Positions 50,003-58,919 of a stretch of 64,000 bases of DNA are shown piece after piece. This DNA is from Methanomassiliicoccus luminyensis B10 (lineage in GTDB: Archaea > Thermoplasmatota > Thermoplasmata > Methanomassiliicoccales > Methanomassiliicoccaceae). The notes below the pieces were generated by a model. It was not told where the DNA came from. It saw nothing but the letters and a program-made list of their open reading frames with translations, and searched no databases. Within the stretch, counting starts at the first letter, position 1. Each line of letters opens with the position of its first letter. The stretch is from NCBI RefSeq assembly GCF_000308215.1, contig NZ_CAJE01000017.1, positions 1-64,000 on the forward strand, given 5' to 3'. The translations under genes were made by a program, and so were the position numbers.

Positions 50003-50977
50003 ATGTCCTTAAACAGGAAGTCACGCACCATAATCGCACTGGCCGTCGTCGGTGCCCTGGTACTATCCGGCGGATTCGCTTTTGCCTACTATAGCACAGG
50101 ACAGAGCTCGGACAAGATGCAGGTGGTGGCGACGTTCTATCCTCTGTACTACTTTTCCTCCGAGATCGGGAAGGACAAGGCTGACGTGAGCATGCTCATC
50201 CCCGACAACGCGGAGCCGCATTCATGGGAGCCGCGCCCCTCCGACGTGGTGAAGGTGGACAAAGCCGATATCCTCGTGTACAACGGCGCGGGCTTCGAGC
50301 CGTGGATGGATGAGTTCCTTGAGCTGACCACTAAAAAGGAGGTTGTCGTGGTGGACACCAGCAAGAACGTGTCCCTGATGGAGGGGCATGATCATGATCA
50401 CGAGGAGGGAGAAGAGCATGATCATGAAGAGGAGGAGCACGACCACGGGCCCAACGATCCCCACTTCTGGCTCGACCCAAGGAGCGCCAAGGTGCAGGTA
50501 GATAATATCCTGGCCGCCTTCGTGGAGGCGGACCCCGACAACGCCGACTTCTACGAGGCCAACGCCGAGGACCTCAAGTCCCGGCTGGACGCCTTGGACC
50601 AGGAGTTCGCGGACGGCCTGGCCGATCGGACCAAGGACGATATCGTGACCACTCACGAGGGGTTCAATTACCTCGCCGCCAGGTACGGGTTCAACGTGCA
50701 CAGTGTCATGGGCATATACGCCGATACGGGCGACATTACTCCTGAGGCCATGGCCGAGCTTGAAGACCTCATCAACGATCTCGGGATCGGCTACATCTTC
50801 GGGGAGCCGACCTACTCGGACACTACCATCGAGAGCCTGGCCCATGACACCGGCGCCGAGGTGCTCATCCTCGACGGCATACACGGGCGGTCCGGACCGC
50901 ACGCGGACATGGACTACTTCGAGATAATGCGGGCGAACCTGCAGGCGCTGCGGACCGGCCTGGGAGTAAGCACTTAA
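50003..50977 (+). CDS. ZnuA/TroA-type metal-binding protein of ABC importer
   Basis: 324 aa lipoprotein-like or anchored cluster A-I binding protein. N-terminal signal anchor (TIIALAVVGALVLSGGFAFA), PHSWEPRPSD with the first metal His, a His/Asp/Glu-rich flexible loop (HDHDHEEGEEHDHEEEEHDHG, about residues 128-148), DPHFWLDP (second His), a TTHEGFNYLA (third His) and DGIHG near the end. This family carries Zn or Mn; the divergent NikR makes nickel a possible cargo here. First gene of a three-gene operon. Confidence 0.9.
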   Translation: MSLNRKSRTIIALAVVGALVLSGGFAFAYYSTGQSSDKMQVVATFYPLYYFSSEIGKDKADVSMLIPDNAEPHSWEPRPSDVVKVDKADILVYNGAGFEPWMDEFLELTTKKEVVVVDTSKNVSLMEGHDHDHEEGEEHDHEEEEHDHGPNDPHFWLDPRSAKVQVDNILAAFVEADPDNADFYEANAEDLKSRLDALDQEFADGLADRTKDDIVTTHEGFNYLAARYGFNVHSVMGIYADTGDITPEAMAELEDLINDLGIGYIFGEPTYSDTTIESLAHDTGAEVLILDGIHGRSGPHADMDYFEIMRANLQALRTGLGVST

Positions 50978-51003
50978 ATCCCCCTTTTCATGTGGTGAGC
51001 GGA

Positions 51004-51783
51004 ATGGTCGAAAAGGTAGTAGAGATCAGGGACCTGGTCGTCAAGTACGGCAACAACACCGCCCTCGACGGGGTGTCGCTGGATGTCGAGAAGGGGGATG
51101 TGCTGGGCATCATCGGCCCCAACGGAGGAGGGAAGACGACCCTCCTCAACGCGATGCTCGGCAATGTCAAGATCGCCTCCGGCTCGGTGAAGCTGTTCGG
51201 TACCGAGCTGGGGAAGTTCAGGGACCACCACAAGATCGGGTACGTCTCGCAGCACGCCATCCAGTTCGATCCCCTGTTCCCCGCCACGGTGGAGGAGATC
51301 GTGCGCCTGGGGTGCATCACCCGCAACAGGCTGGGGCGCAGGCTTTCCTCCGATGACAAGAGGGCGGTCCGCGAGGCCATGGAGCTGGTCGGCATCGACA
51401 ATGTGAGGGGGAAGAAGATCAGCGAGCTGTCCGGCGGGCAGAAGCAGCGCATCTTCATCGCCAAGGCGCTGGTCAGGGAGCCGGAGCTGATCATCCTCGA
51501 TGAGGCGGCCAGCGGGCTGGACGTCGGCATCCAGGACCGCTTCGTCAAGCTGCTCCGGAAGCTGAGGGATGAAAGGGGAGTGACGGTCATCACCGTCTCC
51601 CATGACATCTCCAGCGTGATGTGCCAGGCCAATAAGCTGGCCATCGTCAACCGCAAGCTGGAGTTCACCGAGATCACCGAGGGAACGGACCCTCACCAGG
51701 CTATGAGGGACGCCTACGGCGAGCATTTCACCTTCGTGTTCCACCACGAGCGCGACGGCTGCGTAGGCCACAACCATGGGTGA
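51004..51783 (+). CDS. ZnuC-type metal ABC transporter ATPase
   Basis: 259 aa. Walker A GPNGGGKTT, signature LSGGQKQR, Walker B LIILDEAASGLD, switch His in VSHDIS. The C-terminus FVFHHERDGCVGHNHG is His-rich and may bind metal. Start ATG 51004, 26 bp after the binding-protein stop; ATG 50992 is also open. Downstream permease overlaps or nearly touches. Confidence 0.92.
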   Translation: MVEKVVEIRDLVVKYGNNTALDGVSLDVEKGDVLGIIGPNGGGKTTLLNAMLGNVKIASGSVKLFGTELGKFRDHHKIGYVSQHAIQFDPLFPATVEEIVRLGCITRNRLGRRLSSDDKRAVREAMELVGIDNVRGKKISELSGGQKQRIFIAKALVREPELIILDEAASGLDVGIQDRFVKLLRKLRDERGVTVITVSHDISSVMCQANKLAIVNRKLEFTEITEGTDPHQAMRDAYGEHFTFVFHHERDGCVGHNHG

Positions 51784-51787
51784 GAAC

Positions 51788-52705
51788 ATGCTGGAGATCA
51801 ACGACCTTATCAACATGTTCGAGTACGCCTTCTTCCAGCGCGCCTTCATCGGCGGGCTGTTCGCGGCCGCCCTGTGCTCCTTGTTGGGAGTGTTCATTGT
51901 GCTGAGGCGGGCGGCGCTCATCGGCGAGGGGGTCGCCCACCTCTCCTTCGGCGGCATCGCCCTGGGCCTGTTCATGTCGGTGTACCCTCTCGACACTGCC
52001 CTCCTGATGTCGCTGGTGGGCATCTTCGCCATCTCCTACATGCAGCGCAAGAAGATCGTGTACTCGGAGATGGCCATCGGCATCATGATCGCCTTCGGCC
52101 TCGGCCTGGGCTCAGTGCTGGCGAGCCTCAGCGGCGGCTTCAGCGTGGACCTGTTCTCTTACCTGTTCGGCTCCATCCTGACCATCTCCAACAGCGATCT
52201 CACGCTGATCGTCGGCCTGTCCCTCGCCGTGCTGGCGTTCGTGCTCCTGTTCTTCAAGGAGCTGATGCACATGACCTTTGACGAACAGGGCGCCAGGCTG
52301 TCCGGGATACCGGTGTTCTGGCTCGACCTGGCGTTCAACGTCGTGCTCGCTTTCACCGTGGTGGTGTCGATCAAGATCGTCGGCTCGCTCCTCGTATCCG
52401 CCCTGATCATCATCCCCGCCTCCTCGGCGATGCAGCTCTCGAGGTCGTTCCGGGGGACCGTTGCCATCAGCGTCGTTCTCGGCGCCATGGCGGTAGTGGC
52501 GGGCCTGGTGGCCTCATTCGTCTACGATGTCGCCACGGGCGGCGCCATCGTTCTGTGCAGCATCGGCATATTCCTGCTGTGCATATTGTTCAAGAAGATC
52601 CAGGGGAAGGAGGAGGGGGCGCCCGAGTACGAGAACGCGAAGCAGGGCGACCTCATCAGGATCGAGAGCGAGGCGCCCACGGCCGATGCCAAGGACCGAC
52701 CGTGA
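51788..52705 (+). CDS. ZnuB-type metal ABC transporter permease
   Basis: 305 aa, eight or nine membrane helices with RRAALIGEGVAHLSFGGIALG (the conserved region of ABC-3 permeases) and the SIKIVGSLLVSALIIIPASSA block. The start is ATG 51788 (GGTGA upstream) or ATG 51776, which overlaps the ATPase stop. A charged cytoplasmic tail of about 45 residues follows the last helix. With 50003 and 51004 it forms one divalent-metal importer. Confidence 0.92.
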   Translation: MLEINDLINMFEYAFFQRAFIGGLFAAALCSLLGVFIVLRRAALIGEGVAHLSFGGIALGLFMSVYPLDTALLMSLVGIFAISYMQRKKIVYSEMAIGIMIAFGLGLGSVLASLSGGFSVDLFSYLFGSILTISNSDLTLIVGLSLAVLAFVLLFFKELMHMTFDEQGARLSGIPVFWLDLAFNVVLAFTVVVSIKIVGSLLVSALIIIPASSAMQLSRSFRGTVAISVVLGAMAVVAGLVASFVYDVATGGAIVLCSIGIFLLCILFKKIQGKEEGAPEYENAKQGDLIRIESEAPTADAKDRP

Positions 52706-52737: not shown

Positions 52738-54555
52738 TCAAAGGCCGATCTCTTTGGCCCTCTGGTCCACTCTCTTCTTCACTTCGGCGGACATCTCGAT
52801 CTCGTCCGGCCACTCCCGGGCGAAGCCATCGGCCGGCCCCTTCCTGGTGGCGTCCACGATGACGCTCCTCTCGCCGATCCTTATGTCCCTCAGGGGGTCG
52901 ATGTTGTTGAACGATCTCCAAAGGACCAGGGAGTCGTCGGCGAGGTCGATGTCGTCGTAGAGGACGACCACGCCCTGATCGGCGGTCCTCCCGGCCTCGG
53001 CGAGCCTGCCGATGAAATGGTTCGTGCTCTGCCCTCCCTTCCTCAGGGCGATGAGCTGCAGGGGGTTCCTTGACCCGGGCGCGATGGCCCGGCAGGATAC
53101 GAACCCCCGGTCCAGGGCCCTGAGCGAAGCGATCGTCTCCTCCCCGGAGCCGGTGCGCCCGAACCTCTTCTTCCCCCGGGGAGGCTCCCCTGCCAGCCGG
53201 GCCGTCGCGTCGATGCCCAGCTTGCCGCCGTACAGGGCATGGGGGGCGGAGTGGTCCAGGACGTCGAGCATTCCCTCCGTCACCACCAGGTCGCTCCACG
53301 GGTCCATGGCGTCAAGGAGGTGGGCGAGCAGCCTTTTCTTGTCCCTGAGCAGGGAGGCGTCGTCCACCACCGCGATCATCTTGGCGAAGCTCATCTGGCC
53401 GTTACCCCACAGCGAGCTCATGACCTTTCTCGCCTGCATGGGGTACTCCTTCCTGATGGCTACTACCACGATGTTGTGGAACACCCCCTCCCAGGGCATC
53501 CAGTAGTCGACGATCTCCGGCACGATCATGCGCAGCGGCGGGAGGAACACCCGCTCGGTGGCCTTCGCCATGTAGCAGTCCTCCATGGGAGGACGGCCGA
53601 CCACGGTGGCGCTGTAGATGGCGTCCCGGCGGTGCGTGAGAGCGGTGACGTGGAATACGGGGTACTCGCCCGGCAGCGAGTAGTAGCCAGTATGGTCGCC
53701 GAAGGGGCCCTCGGTCCTCCGCTCCTCCGGGTCGACGTATCCCTCGAGCACGAACTCGGCGGTTGCCGGGACCTCCAGGTCGACGGTCCGGCACTTCACC
53801 AGGTCGACCGGCGAGCCGCGGACGAAGCCGGCCAGGAGCATCTCGTCGAGGCCCTGGGGCATGGGGGCGGTGGCGGCGTAGGTGACCGCGGGATCGGTGC
53901 CGATGGCCACCGCCACTTCCATTCTTTTCCCCGCCCTCCTGTACCCGTCGAAGTAATGGCTCCCGTCCTTGTGCACGTGCCAATGCATCCCGGTGGTGCG
54001 GCGGTCGAACAGCTGCATGCGGTACATGCCCGCGTTGCGCTTCCCTTCCAGGCTCTTGGTGAAGACCACGGGCAGGGTGATGAACCTGCCGCCGTCCTGG
54101 GGCCAGCACTTCAGCGCCGGCAGCAGACCGAGGTCAACGTCGTCCCCTTCCAGCACGACCTCCTGGCAGGGGGGCCGCGACATCCTCCTCACCCGGGGGA
54201 GGCACTTCGAAAGGGACAGCAGCTCCGGGAGGAGAGCGGCCTTCTGCCGGAACGTGGCGGGCGGCCTCATGTCCAGAAGCCCCGAGACCCTGGCACCCAG
54301 CGCGTCAAGGTCCTGGGCCCCCAGGGCCATGGACATTCTCTCCCCGCTCCCGAAGGCATTGGTGAGGACCGGGAACCCGCTGCCCTCTACCCTCTCGAAC
54401 AGCAGCGCCTTGCCGCCGCCGGGGCTCTTGGACATGCGGTCGGTGATCTCCGTTATCTCCAGCTCGGGGGACACCTCCGCCTTGACACGCAGTAGCTCAC
54501 CCTCCGCCTCGAGGCGGGAGAGGAAGTCCCTCAGGTCACGGAACGCGGCTGTCAC
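52738..54555 (-). CDS. UbiD/MqnL-type prenylated-FMN decarboxylase
   Basis: 605 aa. Removes the carboxylate of a (prenylated) aromatic acid using prenyl-FMN. Features: N-terminal FRDLRDFLSRLEAEGELLRV, the prFMN/metal region MHWHVHKDGSHYFDGYRRAGKRMEVAVAIGTDP, and the active-site strand PEERRTEGPFGDHTGYYS. The length near 600 aa is like the menaquinone (futalosine) branch enzymes of epsilon-proteobacteria rather than E. coli UbiD (about 495). GTG 54555 is used: it overlaps the UbiE stop by 20 nt and has GGAG 7 nt before. Last gene of the five-gene operon; the UbiX flavin prenyltransferase it needs is not in this window. Confidence 0.9.
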   Translation of the reverse strand: MTAAFRDLRDFLSRLEAEGELLRVKAEVSPELEITEITDRMSKSPGGGKALLFERVEGSGFPVLTNAFGSGERMSMALGAQDLDALGARVSGLLDMRPPATFRQKAALLPELLSLSKCLPRVRRMSRPPCQEVVLEGDDVDLGLLPALKCWPQDGGRFITLPVVFTKSLEGKRNAGMYRMQLFDRRTTGMHWHVHKDGSHYFDGYRRAGKRMEVAVAIGTDPAVTYAATAPMPQGLDEMLLAGFVRGSPVDLVKCRTVDLEVPATAEFVLEGYVDPEERRTEGPFGDHTGYYSLPGEYPVFHVTALTHRRDAIYSATVVGRPPMEDCYMAKATERVFLPPLRMIVPEIVDYWMPWEGVFHNIVVVAIRKEYPMQARKVMSSLWGNGQMSFAKMIAVVDDASLLRDKKRLLAHLLDAMDPWSDLVVTEGMLDVLDHSAPHALYGGKLGIDATARLAGEPPRGKKRFGRTGSGEETIASLRALDRGFVSCRAIAPGSRNPLQLIALRKGGQSTNHFIGRLAEAGRTADQGVVVLYDDIDLADDSLVLWRSFNNIDPLRDIRIGERSVIVDATRKGPADGFAREWPDEIEMSAEVKKRVDQRAKEIGL

Positions 54556-55291
54556 GGCCCTTCTCCATGACGTACAGGTGGCAGATGTTCATCGTCTGCG
54601 GCACCGAGCTCACGATCCTGAAGCCCTTGCGCTCCATGAGCCGCTCCACCTCGTCCGGAGCCGGGAAGGTCAGGATGGAGTCCCGCAAGTACTCGTAAGC
54701 GGCCTGGTTCCCGGACTGGAACCTCCCGATGAGCGGCATTATCCTGGTCAGGTACAGGAGGTATATCGGGCGGGTGATCCTGCACGCCGGCACCGAGAGC
54801 TCGAGCACCAGGAACCTTCCGCCCGGGCGCAGTACCCGGTGGACCTCTCCCACGAACCTGTCGATGTCCACCATGTTCCTTATCCCGTACGCGACCATGG
54901 CCTTGTCGAAGGTGCCGTCGGGAAAGGGCATCGCCAGAGCGTCGCCCTTCACCAGGGAGTACCGTCCCTTGACCTTCTGCCGCCCCCACTTCCTCTCGGC
55001 CTCCAGCATCATGTTCTTGGAGAGGTCGATGCCCACGATGGAGCACTCCGTCCTCCCGGCGGCCTGGATGGCCATGTCCCCGGTGCCGGTGGCGATGTCC
55101 AGGACCTCGTCCCCTTTCTGGATGTCCAGCCTGTCGAGCCCCTGCTTCCTCCACATGATGTCCGCCGACATCGACATCATGCGGTTCAGGTTGTCATACG
55201 TCGGGGTGATGGCGTCGAACAGCCCCCCTATGGTCTCCGGCCGCTTGTCAATGGCCGCTCCGTTCGTTCCAACATCGCCGCTCTCGCTCAT
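54536..55291 (-). CDS. UbiE/MenG-type quinone C-methyltransferase
   Basis: 251 aa SAM-dependent methyltransferase. FDAITPTYDNLNRMMS near the start and VLDIATGTGD (motif I), VAYGIRNMVD and RPGGRFLVLELS are the standard UbiE/MenG landmarks, so it probably methylates the ring of a demethylquinone. ATG 55291 overlaps the stop of the permease-UbiA fusion by 4 nt, and its own end overlaps the UbiD gene. Soluble. The coupling fixes these three genes as one pathway. Confidence 0.92.
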   Translation of the reverse strand: MSESGDVGTNGAAIDKRPETIGGLFDAITPTYDNLNRMMSMSADIMWRKQGLDRLDIQKGDEVLDIATGTGDMAIQAAGRTECSIVGIDLSKNMMLEAERKWGRQKVKGRYSLVKGDALAMPFPDGTFDKAMVAYGIRNMVDIDRFVGEVHRVLRPGGRFLVLELSVPACRITRPIYLLYLTRIMPLIGRFQSGNQAAYEYLRDSILTFPAPDEVERLMERKGFRIVSSVPQTMNICHLYVMEKGRDSRVP

Positions 55292-56913
55292 GCCATCACC
55301 ACCCCGAACAATATGGAGGCGAACACCAGGACAGAGATAACGCTATTGACGTTGAAGAAGGCCACGTCGATCTTGGAGAGGTCGTCGGGCCGGACCAGGC
55401 GATGCTCCAGGACGAACAGGACCACGATCGCGGCTGTGAACGCCAGGTAGACGGGGCTGAGCGGCACCAGCCAATAGAGGGAGGCCAGGCATAGTACGCT
55501 CGCGGCGTGGAGCGCGGACGATATGGCCATCGCCCGGTCCACTCCGAGGTTCGCGGGCATCGAGAACAACCCCTCCCTGCGGTCGAAATCCACGTCCTGG
55601 CAGGAATACAGGATGTCGAAGCCGGCGATGTACAGCATCAGGCCCATGCTGAGCACGAGCACCTCCAGCGATGCCCCGCCGGTGATAGCGATGCTGACGC
55701 CCAGGGGCATCATGCCGATAGCCAGCCCCAGCATCAGGTGGCTGGCCCAGGTGACGCGCTTGGCATAGGAGTACGCGAACAGGAAGACCAGCACCGGGAA
55801 CGACAATATGAAGCAGGTCCATGAGAGCATCGCCGCCGAACCGATGAACAGGAAGGAGGACAGCGCCACGAAGGCGGTCGCCTCTCTTGTCGTCAGCGAA
55901 CCGGAGGGGATGTGCCGCTCCTTCGTCCTGGGGTTCCTGGCATCGATGGCCGCGTCCGCTATGCGGTTGAAGCCCATGGCCGCGGACCTCGCGCCCACGA
56001 TGGCCAGTATCGCCCAGAACACCATCTCGAAGGTGACGGCGTGATCACGGCCCAGGATCACCAGGGCGGCCAGGCCGAACGGCAGCGCGAAGACGGTATG
56101 ACTGACCTTGATCATGCGGGCGTACGTCGCGGCCTTGGCCAGGAGCGGGCTGTCCGCGGCCTCCTCGGGCGCCTCCCTCCACCGGCACATCCTCCTCTCG
56201 GCGAAGGTAAAGGCCTCGTACAACACGATGCCCAGGAGGCTCATGGCCAGGATGCCCACGTAGATCTGGGTGTACTGCCCCCAGTTCCAGGCGTTCACGA
56301 TGAAGTAGCCGAGGCCGGAGGAGCCGGCGAACGACTCGGTGAAGAACAGCACCGATATCGCCGTCCCGGTGACGATGCGCAGTGCGGTGAAGCTGCTGGG
56401 GAGGGCGGCGGGGACTATCGCCTCCCTCAGGATGTCCCCCTCGCTGGCGTTCATCGAGCGCATCGAGTCGATGTACTTCTGGTCGATGCCGCTGACCCCC
56501 TCCTTGGTGGTCACCAGTATCTGGAAGAAGACTATGATGGTGATGAGGATGATCTTGGAGAGGTCGTCCAGGCCGAACAGGAGTATGATCACCGGCAGGA
56601 AGGCCATCTTGGGGATCGGGTAGGTCAGGAAGATCAGGGGGCTGACGTACCGGTCCACCCTCCGCCGGTAGCCGATGAACACGGCCAGGGGGAATGCCAG
56701 CAGCCACGCGACCGCTATGCTCACCGCGACCCTGTAGGTGCTTATCAAGAAGTCGGACCAGAACGCCCCCGTCTGGGCGGCGTCGAAGAACGCCAGGAAG
56801 GTCTCTTCGGGCCCGGGCAGGACGTTGGAATCGATGACCACCGCGGCCAGCTTCCACACCAGGATGCAGACGGCCAGCGATAGGATGTACCCCAGGAGCC
56901 TCTGTCGGTTCAT
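55288..56913 (-). CDS. Fusion of ABC importer permease with UbiA/MqnP prenyltransferase
   Basis: 541 aa in one uninterrupted frame. Residues 1-250 are an SsuC/TauC/ThiX-type permease: five or six helices, YPIPKMAFLPVIILLFG, and the EAA loop ASEGDILREAIVPAALPSSFTALRI. After a hydrophilic linker (about 251-270, RWREAPEEAADS) residues 271-541 are a complete UbiA-superfamily prenyltransferase: IKVSHTVFALPFGLAAL, first Asp motif NRIADAAIDARNP, second Asp motif DVDFDRREG, and about eight helices. The wording is closest to MqnP of the futalosine menaquinone route. The protein would bring an aromatic acid across the membrane and hand it to the prenyltransferase. I know of no described fusion of this type. 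Confidence 0.9.
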   Translation of the reverse strand: MNRQRLLGYILSLAVCILVWKLAAVVIDSNVLPGPEETFLAFFDAAQTGAFWSDFLISTYRVAVSIAVAWLLAFPLAVFIGYRRRVDRYVSPLIFLTYPIPKMAFLPVIILLFGLDDLSKIILITIIVFFQILVTTKEGVSGIDQKYIDSMRSMNASEGDILREAIVPAALPSSFTALRIVTGTAISVLFFTESFAGSSGLGYFIVNAWNWGQYTQIYVGILAMSLLGIVLYEAFTFAERRMCRWREAPEEAADSPLLAKAATYARMIKVSHTVFALPFGLAALVILGRDHAVTFEMVFWAILAIVGARSAAMGFNRIADAAIDARNPRTKERHIPSGSLTTREATAFVALSSFLFIGSAAMLSWTCFILSFPVLVFLFAYSYAKRVTWASHLMLGLAIGMMPLGVSIAITGGASLEVLVLSMGLMLYIAGFDILYSCQDVDFDRREGLFSMPANLGVDRAMAISSALHAASVLCLASLYWLVPLSPVYLAFTAAIVVLFVLEHRLVRPDDLSKIDVAFFNVNSVISVLVFASILFGVVMA

Positions 56914-57644
56914 AGTGCTTCCACCGCCCTCCGCACCTCTTTGCAGGCGGAGAAGAACGACTCGTCCTCCCGGTAGCCCTTGGTCCCCGCCCGGCGATTG
57001 GGGATCAGGGCCTTCCTGGAGCAGGGGCGTCCGCCCAGCACCAAGATGTCGTCCCCCAGGAAGACCGCTTCCTCGATGCTGTGAGTGACCATCACGGTGG
57101 TCAGCCCGGTCCGGCCGCGGATGTCCAGCAGGGCGTCCTGCAGCTTCTCCCGGTTGAGCGTATCAAGGGATGAGAAGGGCTCGTCCATGAGGAGGATCTT
57201 CGGCTCCAATGCCAGCGCCCGGCCGATGGCGACCCTCTGCCTCTCGCCCCCGCTGAGCCGGACGGGGTAATCATCCCGGTGCTCCTCCAGGCCCAGTTCG
57301 CGCATGAGCGCATCGGAGCGGAGCTTCTGCTCGCTCCCGGCCACCTTGCGTATCTTCATCCCCAGGCAGATGTTCTCCCGCACCGTCTTCCACGGCAGCA
57401 GGCCGAAGTCCTGGAGGATGAACGCCACGTCCTCGGAGGGGCCGTCCACCGTCCCCCCGTTCACGGTGACCCTGCCGGCGGAGGGCTTGGTGAGACCGGA
57501 AAGGATGTACAGGAGGGTGGTCTTGCCGCAGCCCGAGGGGCCGATGACGGTGAGCGAGCCGCCCTTCCCCACCGAGAACGACAGGTCCTCGATCACCCTG
57601 AACCCCCGGTCGAACTCCTTGTCCAGATGCTCCACTTCGATCAT
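56910..57644 (-). CDS. SsuB/TauB-type ABC importer ATPase
   Basis: 244 aa. Walker A GPSGCGKTT, Q-loop LQDFGLLPWKTVRENI, signature LSGGERQR, Walker B ILLMDEPFSSLD, switch His VTHSIEEA: the nitrate/sulfonate/taurine/thiamine-precursor class. ATG 57644 lies 5 bp past the binding-protein stop; the longer frame to 57734 is not used. Its stop overlaps the fusion gene's ATG by 4 nt, so ATPase and permease-UbiA are made together. Confidence 0.93.
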   Translation of the reverse strand: MIEVEHLDKEFDRGFRVIEDLSFSVGKGGSLTVIGPSGCGKTTLLYILSGLTKPSAGRVTVNGGTVDGPSEDVAFILQDFGLLPWKTVRENICLGMKIRKVAGSEQKLRSDALMRELGLEEHRDDYPVRLSGGERQRVAIGRALALEPKILLMDEPFSSLDTLNREKLQDALLDIRGRTGLTTVMVTHSIEEAVFLGDDILVLGGRPCSRKALIPNRRAGTKGYREDESFFSACKEVRRAVEAL

Positions 57645-57649
57645 TTGCC

Positions 57650-58600
57650 TCACTCGTACAGCTCCACAGCCATGATGCTCTCGTACGGTATCCTGGAGGC
57701 CAGCTTGGGTCCCGAAGGATAGCCGATCATCCACTCCTGCACCTTGTCCACTTCCTCCTCGCTGGGGAGGGCCGGCCCCGATAGGGGCGGGAAGTCGAAG
57801 GTGCCTATCAGTGATCCAGGGAAGGAGAGCTTGCTCTTCAGTATGTCGGCGTATCGCGTGGGGTCCTGGTTGACCAGGGCCGCGCTCTCGTTGTAGGCGG
57901 CGAGGAACCCTTTCGCCAGGTCGAGGTGTTCCGACACGAACCCGCCCCTCAGCGCGATGATGCTGGTGGTGATGTTATAGGAGGTGTCGTTGGCGACCTC
58001 CCGGGCCCCCGCGTTCAAGGCCACGGTGACGAACGGCTCGGGAAGGAAGGCCAGCATGCCCTGGTTCAGGCTTTCCCTGCGCAGAGGGATCGCCGGCACC
58101 TCTTCCTTCGTTACATCGGAGGGGGCCTCGGCGAGCATCTCATCCAGCAGGTACTCCACTATGGTGCCGGTAGAGGTCGCGACCTCCATCCCCCCGATAT
58201 CAGACAGCCCCACCTCGCCTTCCCCCGGCGGAGCCAATAAGGCGAACATCCGGTGGTCGGAGGTATGGTGAGCTATGGTGACGACCTTCACGTCCTCGCC
58301 CGAACTTTTTAGGATCAGCGTTTTCATGAGGTCCCCGAAATAGCCGTCGATCTTGCCCGCGGTGAACGCCGTGATGCACTCGGCCGCGCTGCTGAACTGG
58401 ACTAGTTCGACCTTCACGCCTTCCTTCTCGAAGAGCCCCTGCTCCTGGGCGACGTAAAGGGGCAGGGTGTCGATCACCGGGAGGACCCCGATCCGGACGA
58501 CATCGTCGTCCTCCGGCTGGACCGTGACGGCGATGCCGGCCGCCATCAGCACGACGGCCGCGATGGCGATGGCGAGGGTCTGCACGCTTCCTTTTTCCAT
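57650..58600 (-). CDS. NMT1/THI5-type ABC binding protein
   Basis: 316 aa exported binding protein with an N-terminal anchor (TLAIAIAAVVLMAAGIAVTV). VRIGVLPVIDTLPLYVAQEQGLFEKEGVKVELV followed by A-GKIDGYFGDL is the NMT1-like signature, a fold that also gives rise to the menaquinone enzymes MqnA and MqnD. Substrates of the class include sulfonates, pyrimidines and aromatic carboxylates. ATG 58600 has AAAGGGG 8 nt upstream; the TTG at 58618 is less likely. First gene of the operon. The downstream enzymes suggest an aromatic or naphthoic acid as cargo; that is inference. Confidence 0.9.
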   Translation of the reverse strand: MEKGSVQTLAIAIAAVVLMAAGIAVTVQPEDDDVVRIGVLPVIDTLPLYVAQEQGLFEKEGVKVELVQFSSAAECITAFTAGKIDGYFGDLMKTLILKSSGEDVKVVTIAHHTSDHRMFALLAPPGEGEVGLSDIGGMEVATSTGTIVEYLLDEMLAEAPSDVTKEEVPAIPLRRESLNQGMLAFLPEPFVTVALNAGAREVANDTSYNITTSIIALRGGFVSEHLDLAKGFLAAYNESAALVNQDPTRYADILKSKLSFPGSLIGTFDFPPLSGPALPSEEEVDKVQEWMIGYPSGPKLASRIPYESIMAVELYE

Positions 58601-58919
58601 TCCCTGAGCCCCTTTCAACCGCGTGTATACGGCTACCTCTTGAAGTCTTTTTCCAATCGGATGCCGGAAGTTGGCGGCCTCGGGCCTGGCAACGGACCGT
58701 CCCCCCCCCCCATCGGGGACCGATCATGGCGCTGGGCATTCCGGCAACCAATGCGCGGGCATCAAAGAGGATAAATACCGGCCGGATTCCGTTCTATTTC
58801 ATTGGTGCGACGAACGGGCGGTGATACGGAGAGGGACCTTGGTCAGGCCCTTGGATCGTTGTGTGGTGAGGGGTGAAAGCGCTCGTGGCCTGAGGGGTTC
58901 GGGAAAGCCAGGTGCCGCC
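58601..58919. other. Divergent intergenic region
   Basis: Between the quinone operon and the glycosyltransferase. GATAAATACC (58770-58779) is a likely plus-strand TATA box, implying a leader of over 110 nt. No gene seen, although the glycosyltransferase frame is open through part of it. Confidence 0.45.

Follow-up and report, generated by a model that had tools for sequence, protein, structure and literature searches.

An archaeal permease-prenyltransferase fusion in an operon for probable dihydroxynaphthoate import

Why should an archaeon carry an ATP-binding cassette (ABC) importer whose permease is built in one chain with a prenyltransferase of quinone synthesis? The question is raised by a window of 64,000 nucleotides (the whole stretch of DNA that was analysed) from Methanomassiliicoccus luminyensis B10, positions 1 to 64,000 of contig NZ_CAJE01000017.1. 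On its minus strand, at 52738-58600, lies a single tight operon with the order binding protein, ATPase, permease-UbiA fusion, UbiE and UbiD. We consider it probable that this operon encodes an importer, not described before, that would take up dihydroxynaphthoate and feed the salvage of menaquinone.

Among the grounds for dihydroxynaphthoate import are the linkage of the importer genes to prenyltransferases of families that act on dihydroxynaphthoate and the lack of the genes that form the ring. The organisms that carry the fusion mostly lack these ring genes, and their gene content suggests that they take the ring from neighbours through an undescribed transporter. The features of the operon are as follows, with scores in bits against model cut-offs.

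57650..58600, minus strand: substrate-binding protein of the NMT1/SsuA superfamily with an N-terminal membrane anchor (PF09084, 2.5e-13; PF13379)
56910..57644, minus strand: ABC ATPase of the TauB/SsuB type (PF00005, 5.1e-31)
55288..56913, minus strand: permease-UbiA fusion of 541 amino acids (PF00528, BPD_transp_1, residues 74-242; PF01040, UbiA, residues 277-524)
56149..56913, minus strand: type-I permease half of the fusion, residues 1-255 (domain about 1-250; Pfam PF00528 and the permease tree)
Residues about 246-270 of the fusion, minus strand: linker between the permease and UbiA domains
55291..56148, minus strand: UbiA half of the fusion, residues 256-541 (domain about 271-541; TIGR01475, 264 against 180.8)
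54536..55291, minus strand: UbiE/MenG C-methyltransferase (Ubie_methyltran; TIGR01934, 222.7 against 158.35; NF001244, 216.3 against 216)
52738..54555, minus strand: UbiD-family decarboxylase of the MqnL type with N-terminal, middle and C-terminal Pfam domains (TIGR03701, 619.9 against 495.9)

The binding protein and ATPase genes are 5 base pairs (bp) apart; overlaps of 4 bp join the ATPase to the fusion and the fusion to UbiE, and UbiE runs 20 bp into UbiD. Coordinates and Pfam domains thereby bear out the initial annotation, which had described five overlapping or nearly touching genes. The likely ATG starts of the binding protein and the ATPase are at 58600 and 57644; the longest frames begin at 58618 and 57734. 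Motifs are intact in the ATPase (Walker A GPSGCGKT, Walker B LLMDEP, signature SGGE), in the UbiA half (the Asp-rich NRIADAAID at 316-324 and D433...QD440..D444) and in UbiD (EGPFGDHTG and YRMQ).

Gene settings of the importer and missing ring genes

When bacterial and archaeal contigs were scanned with the UbiA half, the relatives found were 50-63% identical and came almost all from Desulfobacterota-type bacteria and Spirochaetia. In ten bacterial loci (Syntrophales, other Desulfobacterota-type bacteria and Spirochaetia) the fusion is in frame. Seven of the ten have the order binding protein, ATPase, permease-UbiA in one frame and UbiD, most with UbiX between UbiA and UbiD; in bacterial fused operons UbiX usually replaces UbiE. 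The other three, full-length fusions too (G635, G638 and G540), were found among 395 genomes of the phylum of one such bacterium, G277.

The importer is also found unfused. The order UbiD, UbiA, binding protein, ATPase, permease occurs in at least ten genomes (L204-L211, L233, L234). In a third setting the three importer genes precede UbiE and MenA (six loci: L219, L220, L224, L227, L229, L230) or MenA alone (two loci: L223, L226), both without UbiD. Two of these MenA proteins were scored, and they passed TIGR00751 (106.2 and 117.3 against 102.15) while failing the remaining MenA models. Over all settings, three phyla have this importer beside late menaquinone genes, with two prenyltransferase families as partners.

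The chemistry of the two prenyltransferases differs. MenA uses 1,4-dihydroxy-2-naphthoate and itself removes the carboxyl group, whereas MqnP retains the carboxyl group of 1,4-dihydroxy-6-naphthoate, so that MqnL is needed afterwards. The presence or absence of UbiD thus follows the prenyltransferase, which makes dihydroxynaphthoate the common denominator of all importer settings.

No ring-forming gene lies within the operon, in line with the initial annotation, which had seen no enzyme that makes the aromatic ring at the locus. Throughout the source genome (2,620,233 bp, 26 contigs, completeness 99.7%) MqnA/D (PF02621), MqnE, MqnC and MenD are likewise not found over cut-off, UbiC not being part of the search, so that the four genes give no sign of the futalosine or classical pathway that might have been encoded elsewhere.

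The same absence is seen in bacteria. Where the importer is linked, 22 of 28 bacteria are without MqnA/D, compared with one of the 23 in which a related UbiA occurs without a linked importer (Fisher 7e-8, kinship ignored; G430, whose locus ends at a contig edge, is excluded from the importer count). MqnC/E-type matches are absent from 21 of the 28, and none of 34 genomes scanned has a MenD over cut-off. The joint loss of MqnA, MqnD, MqnC and MqnE in bacteria is hard to blame on gaps in the genomes. Where the importer lies away from the late menaquinone genes (seven genomes: L215-L218, L225, L228, L231), MqnA/D is present in all seven.

Binding protein and enzymes of the operon

We propose the binding protein as a candidate dihydroxynaphthoate-binding protein. 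PqqT, one of its structural matches, is the binding protein of the quinone cofactor pyrroloquinoline quinone (PQQ). The AlphaFold model (pLDDT 90.8) has a periplasmic-binding fold and is nearest to SsuA (TM 0.80-0.82), with PqqT at 0.73 and MqnA-type entries at about 0.65; 7an9 and 7ywc, among the lower matches, we take to be MqnA. The sequence has no PF02621 (MqnA/MqnD) match at E 0.001. Archaea and bacteria alike encode its orthologues in this operon.

The importer shares its binding-protein fold and its permease and ATPase families with the SsuABC/TauABC-type importers, PqqT included, but differs from them in its context of menaquinone synthesis and in that it reaches none of the specific SsuA, TauB, SsuC, TauC and SaoX/A/P cut-offs. 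The binding protein scores 86 against 163.5 in the SsuA-family model TIGR01728, the permease 110.9 against 347 (SsuC) and 92.2 against 342 (TauC), and the ATPase 192.8 against 357 (TauB). In the GxLPVxDxLP loop of the binding protein one residue separates two groups without exception: the 26 Mqn-linked copies have Asp or Glu there, the eight MenA-linked ones Gln. This position, just after strand 1, is presumably at the usual place of ligand contact in such proteins.

The fold leaves room for a solute unrelated to the ring, for instance a sulfonate or a cofactor precursor, in which case the linkage to quinone genes would reflect shared regulation and the ring would come from a third pathway. 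SsuA, the nearest fold (TM about 0.8), is a sulfonate-binding protein, and archaeal quinone pathways are known incompletely. However, a linkage that is held in three phyla and with two prenyltransferase families, even as a fusion, and that goes together with missing ring genes, makes an unrelated solute rather unlikely.

UbiD passes TIGR03701, the model of the menaquinone biosynthesis decarboxylase MqnL, and UbiE passes TIGR01934, and NF001244 barely. The UbiA half is over the cut-off of the broad TIGR01475 but does not reach the MqnP-specific models NF041584-6 (211-228 bits against 375-430); these are models of the "exception" type, so that the failure says little for other lineages. Unfused UbiA homologues that are 58-60% identical to the UbiA half adjoin MqnA, MqnD and MqnC/E-type genes (L171, L221, L235). 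Since such close homologues sit in mqn clusters, we regard the UbiA half as MqnP-like by homology and gene context, and not as a proven member.

UbiX, the supplier of prenylated flavin mononucleotide (prenyl-FMN), had been named as a gene to look for genome-wide, and it is present elsewhere in the source genome (G000:C12:259591-260124; TIGR00421, 214 bits against 108.9). All but one of the 15 family genomes have a UbiX over cut-off. The operon has the same enzyme families and the same reaction order as the late futalosine steps of MqnP, MqnL and MenG. It differs in belonging to an archaeon without MqnA/D, MqnC and MqnE, and in a prenyltransferase that is fused to a permease and encoded with the importer.

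The initial annotation had proposed that either a naphthoate or a hydroxybenzoate is imported into prenylation. With 4-hydroxybenzoate or another simple hydroxybenzoate, UbiA and UbiD would act as in the early steps of ubiquinone synthesis and lead to a benzoquinone-type carrier; both superfamilies do act on 4-hydroxybenzoate as well, and UbiE methylates benzoquinols too. However, besides passing the MqnL model, UbiD is far under the cut-off of the E. coli-type UbiD (387 against 788), and the UbiA half, with its close relatives in mqn clusters, is far below that of the proteobacterial UbiA (96.6 against 275.45). Further, MenA, a partner of this importer family in other genomes, does not use hydroxybenzoate. 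We therefore hold the hydroxybenzoate half of the proposal to be improbable, while the naphthoate half gains from the missing MqnA/D, MqnE, MqnC and MenD and from the comparative data.

A carrier other than a naphthoquinone, for instance one resembling methanophenazine, is a very improbable product of the operon and an imported ring. A role in methanophenazine synthesis has been suggested for the UbiA/UbiE/UbiD genes of Methanosarcina (PMC6315138), and a liposoluble carrier of unidentified nature has been assigned to Methanomassiliicoccales (PMC4153887), but the archaeal proteins are 50-60% identical to bacterial ones whose unfused UbiA homologues lie in futalosine clusters.

The source genome holds further genes of these families. 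A separate MenA-family gene lies between purE-like and guaA-like genes (L059:9136-10083; G000:C21, about 34.1-35.1 kb) and scores 232.7 against 102.15 in TIGR00751 and 342 against 264 in NF004751. The genome thus keeps a MenA homologue beside an MqnP-type fusion, with no MenD over cut-off. The description of this archaeon as one not expected to have a quinone was too strong, given this gene and the carrier already proposed from ubiA and ubiE (PMC4153887). Other UbiA copies (C23, C4, C12 and C21:50122) look lipid-type from their neighbouring genes and sequence. In addition, a 566-amino-acid protein with an extra N-terminal membrane region has a UbiA-type domain at its C-terminus and adjoins a geranylgeranyl-reductase-like gene (L060:4322-6022; G000:C21), and a TnpB/IS605-type transposase-like protein, recognised by eye only, is close to a lipid-type UbiA gene (L061:7412-8566; G000:C12).

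The fusion protein and its origin

The in-frame fusion is found in seven of the 15 Methanomassiliicoccaceae genomes, in three genera and with the same flanking gene order. Five other family genomes have full-length copies at 66-75% identity, and a sixth copy is broken by a run of N only. The apparent truncation in this genome, G256, is thus no biological difference; its operon is apparently without UbiE. Among 243 genomes of the phylum no full-length fusion was found outside the family. In-frame copies across archaea and bacteria rule out a frameshift or misassembly as the origin of the fusion, and the suspicion that a stop or frameshift might separate the two halves can be dropped, as the reading frame is continuous in the family genomes and in the ten bacterial loci.

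The linker is short, variable and rich in K/R, as would be expected for a cytosolic loop, and the motif loops would fit the same side. The AlphaFold model of the whole fusion has a mean pLDDT of 71, with the linker below 50, so we make no claim on the interface between permease and UbiA. We found no paper on a permease-UbiA fusion in the open-access literature, and, within the reach of our searches, no architecture that joins an ABC permease to a biosynthetic membrane enzyme has been described. At G000:C24:118355-121256 two stand-alone permeases in tandem are 28-33% identical to the fused permease.

The trees of UbiA, permease and binding protein each place the archaeal copies together in a single clade within the bacterial ones, and the archaeal fused permease groups with the bacterial fused permeases (support 97/91). 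Such nesting argues for transfer from bacteria to the archaeal family, and the archaeal operon was probably acquired in this way. The fusion is not peculiar to archaea, being also present in Desulfobacterota-type bacteria and Spirochaetia, and the bacterial copies and the trees rule out an archaeal origin.

The three trees are mostly concordant, even for four genomes with importer and UbiA on different contigs. A single clade of fusions is rejected both for the UbiA halves (approximately unbiased (AU) test, p 1e-4) and for the permeases (p 0.012), so either fusion or fission has happened more than once, or importer halves have been lost. Four genomes with MqnA/D and MqnC/E have the importer (L215-L218) and UbiA-UbiE-UbiD (L236-L239) on different contigs. 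These importers and these UbiA proteins are both sister to the fused L213, which suggests that an ancestral fusion was split.

An operon of ZnuA, ABC ATPase and permease of the zinc type lies at 50003-52705 on the plus strand and converges with the operon described here.

A salvage route and its meaning

The imported precursor would most likely be 1,4-dihydroxy-6-naphthoate, released by neighbours that use the futalosine pathway. The binding protein would capture the naphthoate outside the cell, and the ATPase would power its passage through a permease dimer, which by analogy with type-I importers would carry two UbiA units per transporter. The UbiA half would face the cytosol with its Asp-rich active site and add a polyprenyl chain. 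UbiD, with the prenyl-FMN made by UbiX, would strip the carboxyl group, and UbiE would methylate the ring to give menaquinone. The fusion would place the prenyltransferase where the imported ring leaves the permease, and so trap this ring in the membrane. A bolder version, vectorial prenylation, in which the naphthoate is handed from permease to prenyltransferase on entry, so that uptake and membrane anchoring are one step, is a tentative idea that we think more doubtful than the import itself.

Several observations weigh against an importer that feeds salvage. M. luminyensis is reported to be without cytochromes and HdrE (PMC7374477), so no quinol-oxidising enzyme is evident. A fusion match is absent from eight of the 15 family genomes, and the fusion is therefore not essential to the lineage. 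In the tree the MenA-linked binding proteins form nearly one clade, so the difference between Asp/Glu and Gln may be a single change. Six of the 28 linked-importer bacteria keep MqnA and/or MqnD, so that the importer is not a strict substitute: both MqnA/D-type genes are present in G280, G638, G540 and the spirochaete G276, while the spirochaetes G274 and G275, whose importer is fused, show a single PF02621 match, with MqnA and two genes of the MqnC/E type. One bacterium (G501) has MqnE and MqnC beside the importer and no MqnA/D in the genome. Finally, the independent origins are few; a phylogenetically corrected test of the importer against the ring genes has three to four independent pairs, which go in the right direction but are too few to reach significance.

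These exceptions resemble steps on the way to losing the pathway, or salvage that is facultative. In two fused-importer spirochaetes (L166:2475-5550 and L167:8497-11470) MqnA and two MqnC/E-type genes stand in a row, with no second PF02621 gene (MqnD). In G501 an MTAP-like gene and a deaminase also adjoin the importer operon (L211:1863-11302), possibly an eroding futalosine pathway.

An exchange of menaquinone precursors was proposed by Ravcheev and Thiele in 2016, with the transporters still to be annotated (PMC4746308). Fenn et al. showed growth on 1,4-dihydroxy-2-naphthoate (DHNA) in 2017 and called its transporters not described (PMC5738691); we found no paper on a DHNA importer in the open-access literature. 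The salvage of 1,4-dihydroxy-2-naphthoate by bacteria with menAG only (PMC4746308, PMC5738691) resembles the route proposed here, in that only late genes are present and the ring comes from neighbours, and the MenA-linked importer loci fit it. What differs is that the importer family is a named candidate and would also serve the Mqn branch and an archaeon. Taken together, the initial annotation is partly supported: its idea of salvage is strengthened and generalised, and its archaeal framing is corrected.

An importer family with a genetic signature, and with two predicted substrate classes split by one residue, makes the question of precursor transport directly testable. The importer could explain the menaquinone of some bacteria with neither complete pathway, a class of genomes described by Chobert et al. 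in 2026 (PMC13386864). Vectorial prenylation, if true, would be a group translocation for quinones, in bacteria and a methanogen that rely on neighbours for the ring.

For Methanomassiliicoccales, Borrel et al. in 2014 listed ubiA and ubiE under an unidentified liposoluble electron carrier (PMC4153887), and later models have electrons passing from an Fpo-like complex to HdrD (PMC7374477). In Methanomassiliicoccaceae the product of the operon, obtained by salvage, is a candidate for the carrier proposed between the Fpo-like complex and heterodisulfide reduction.

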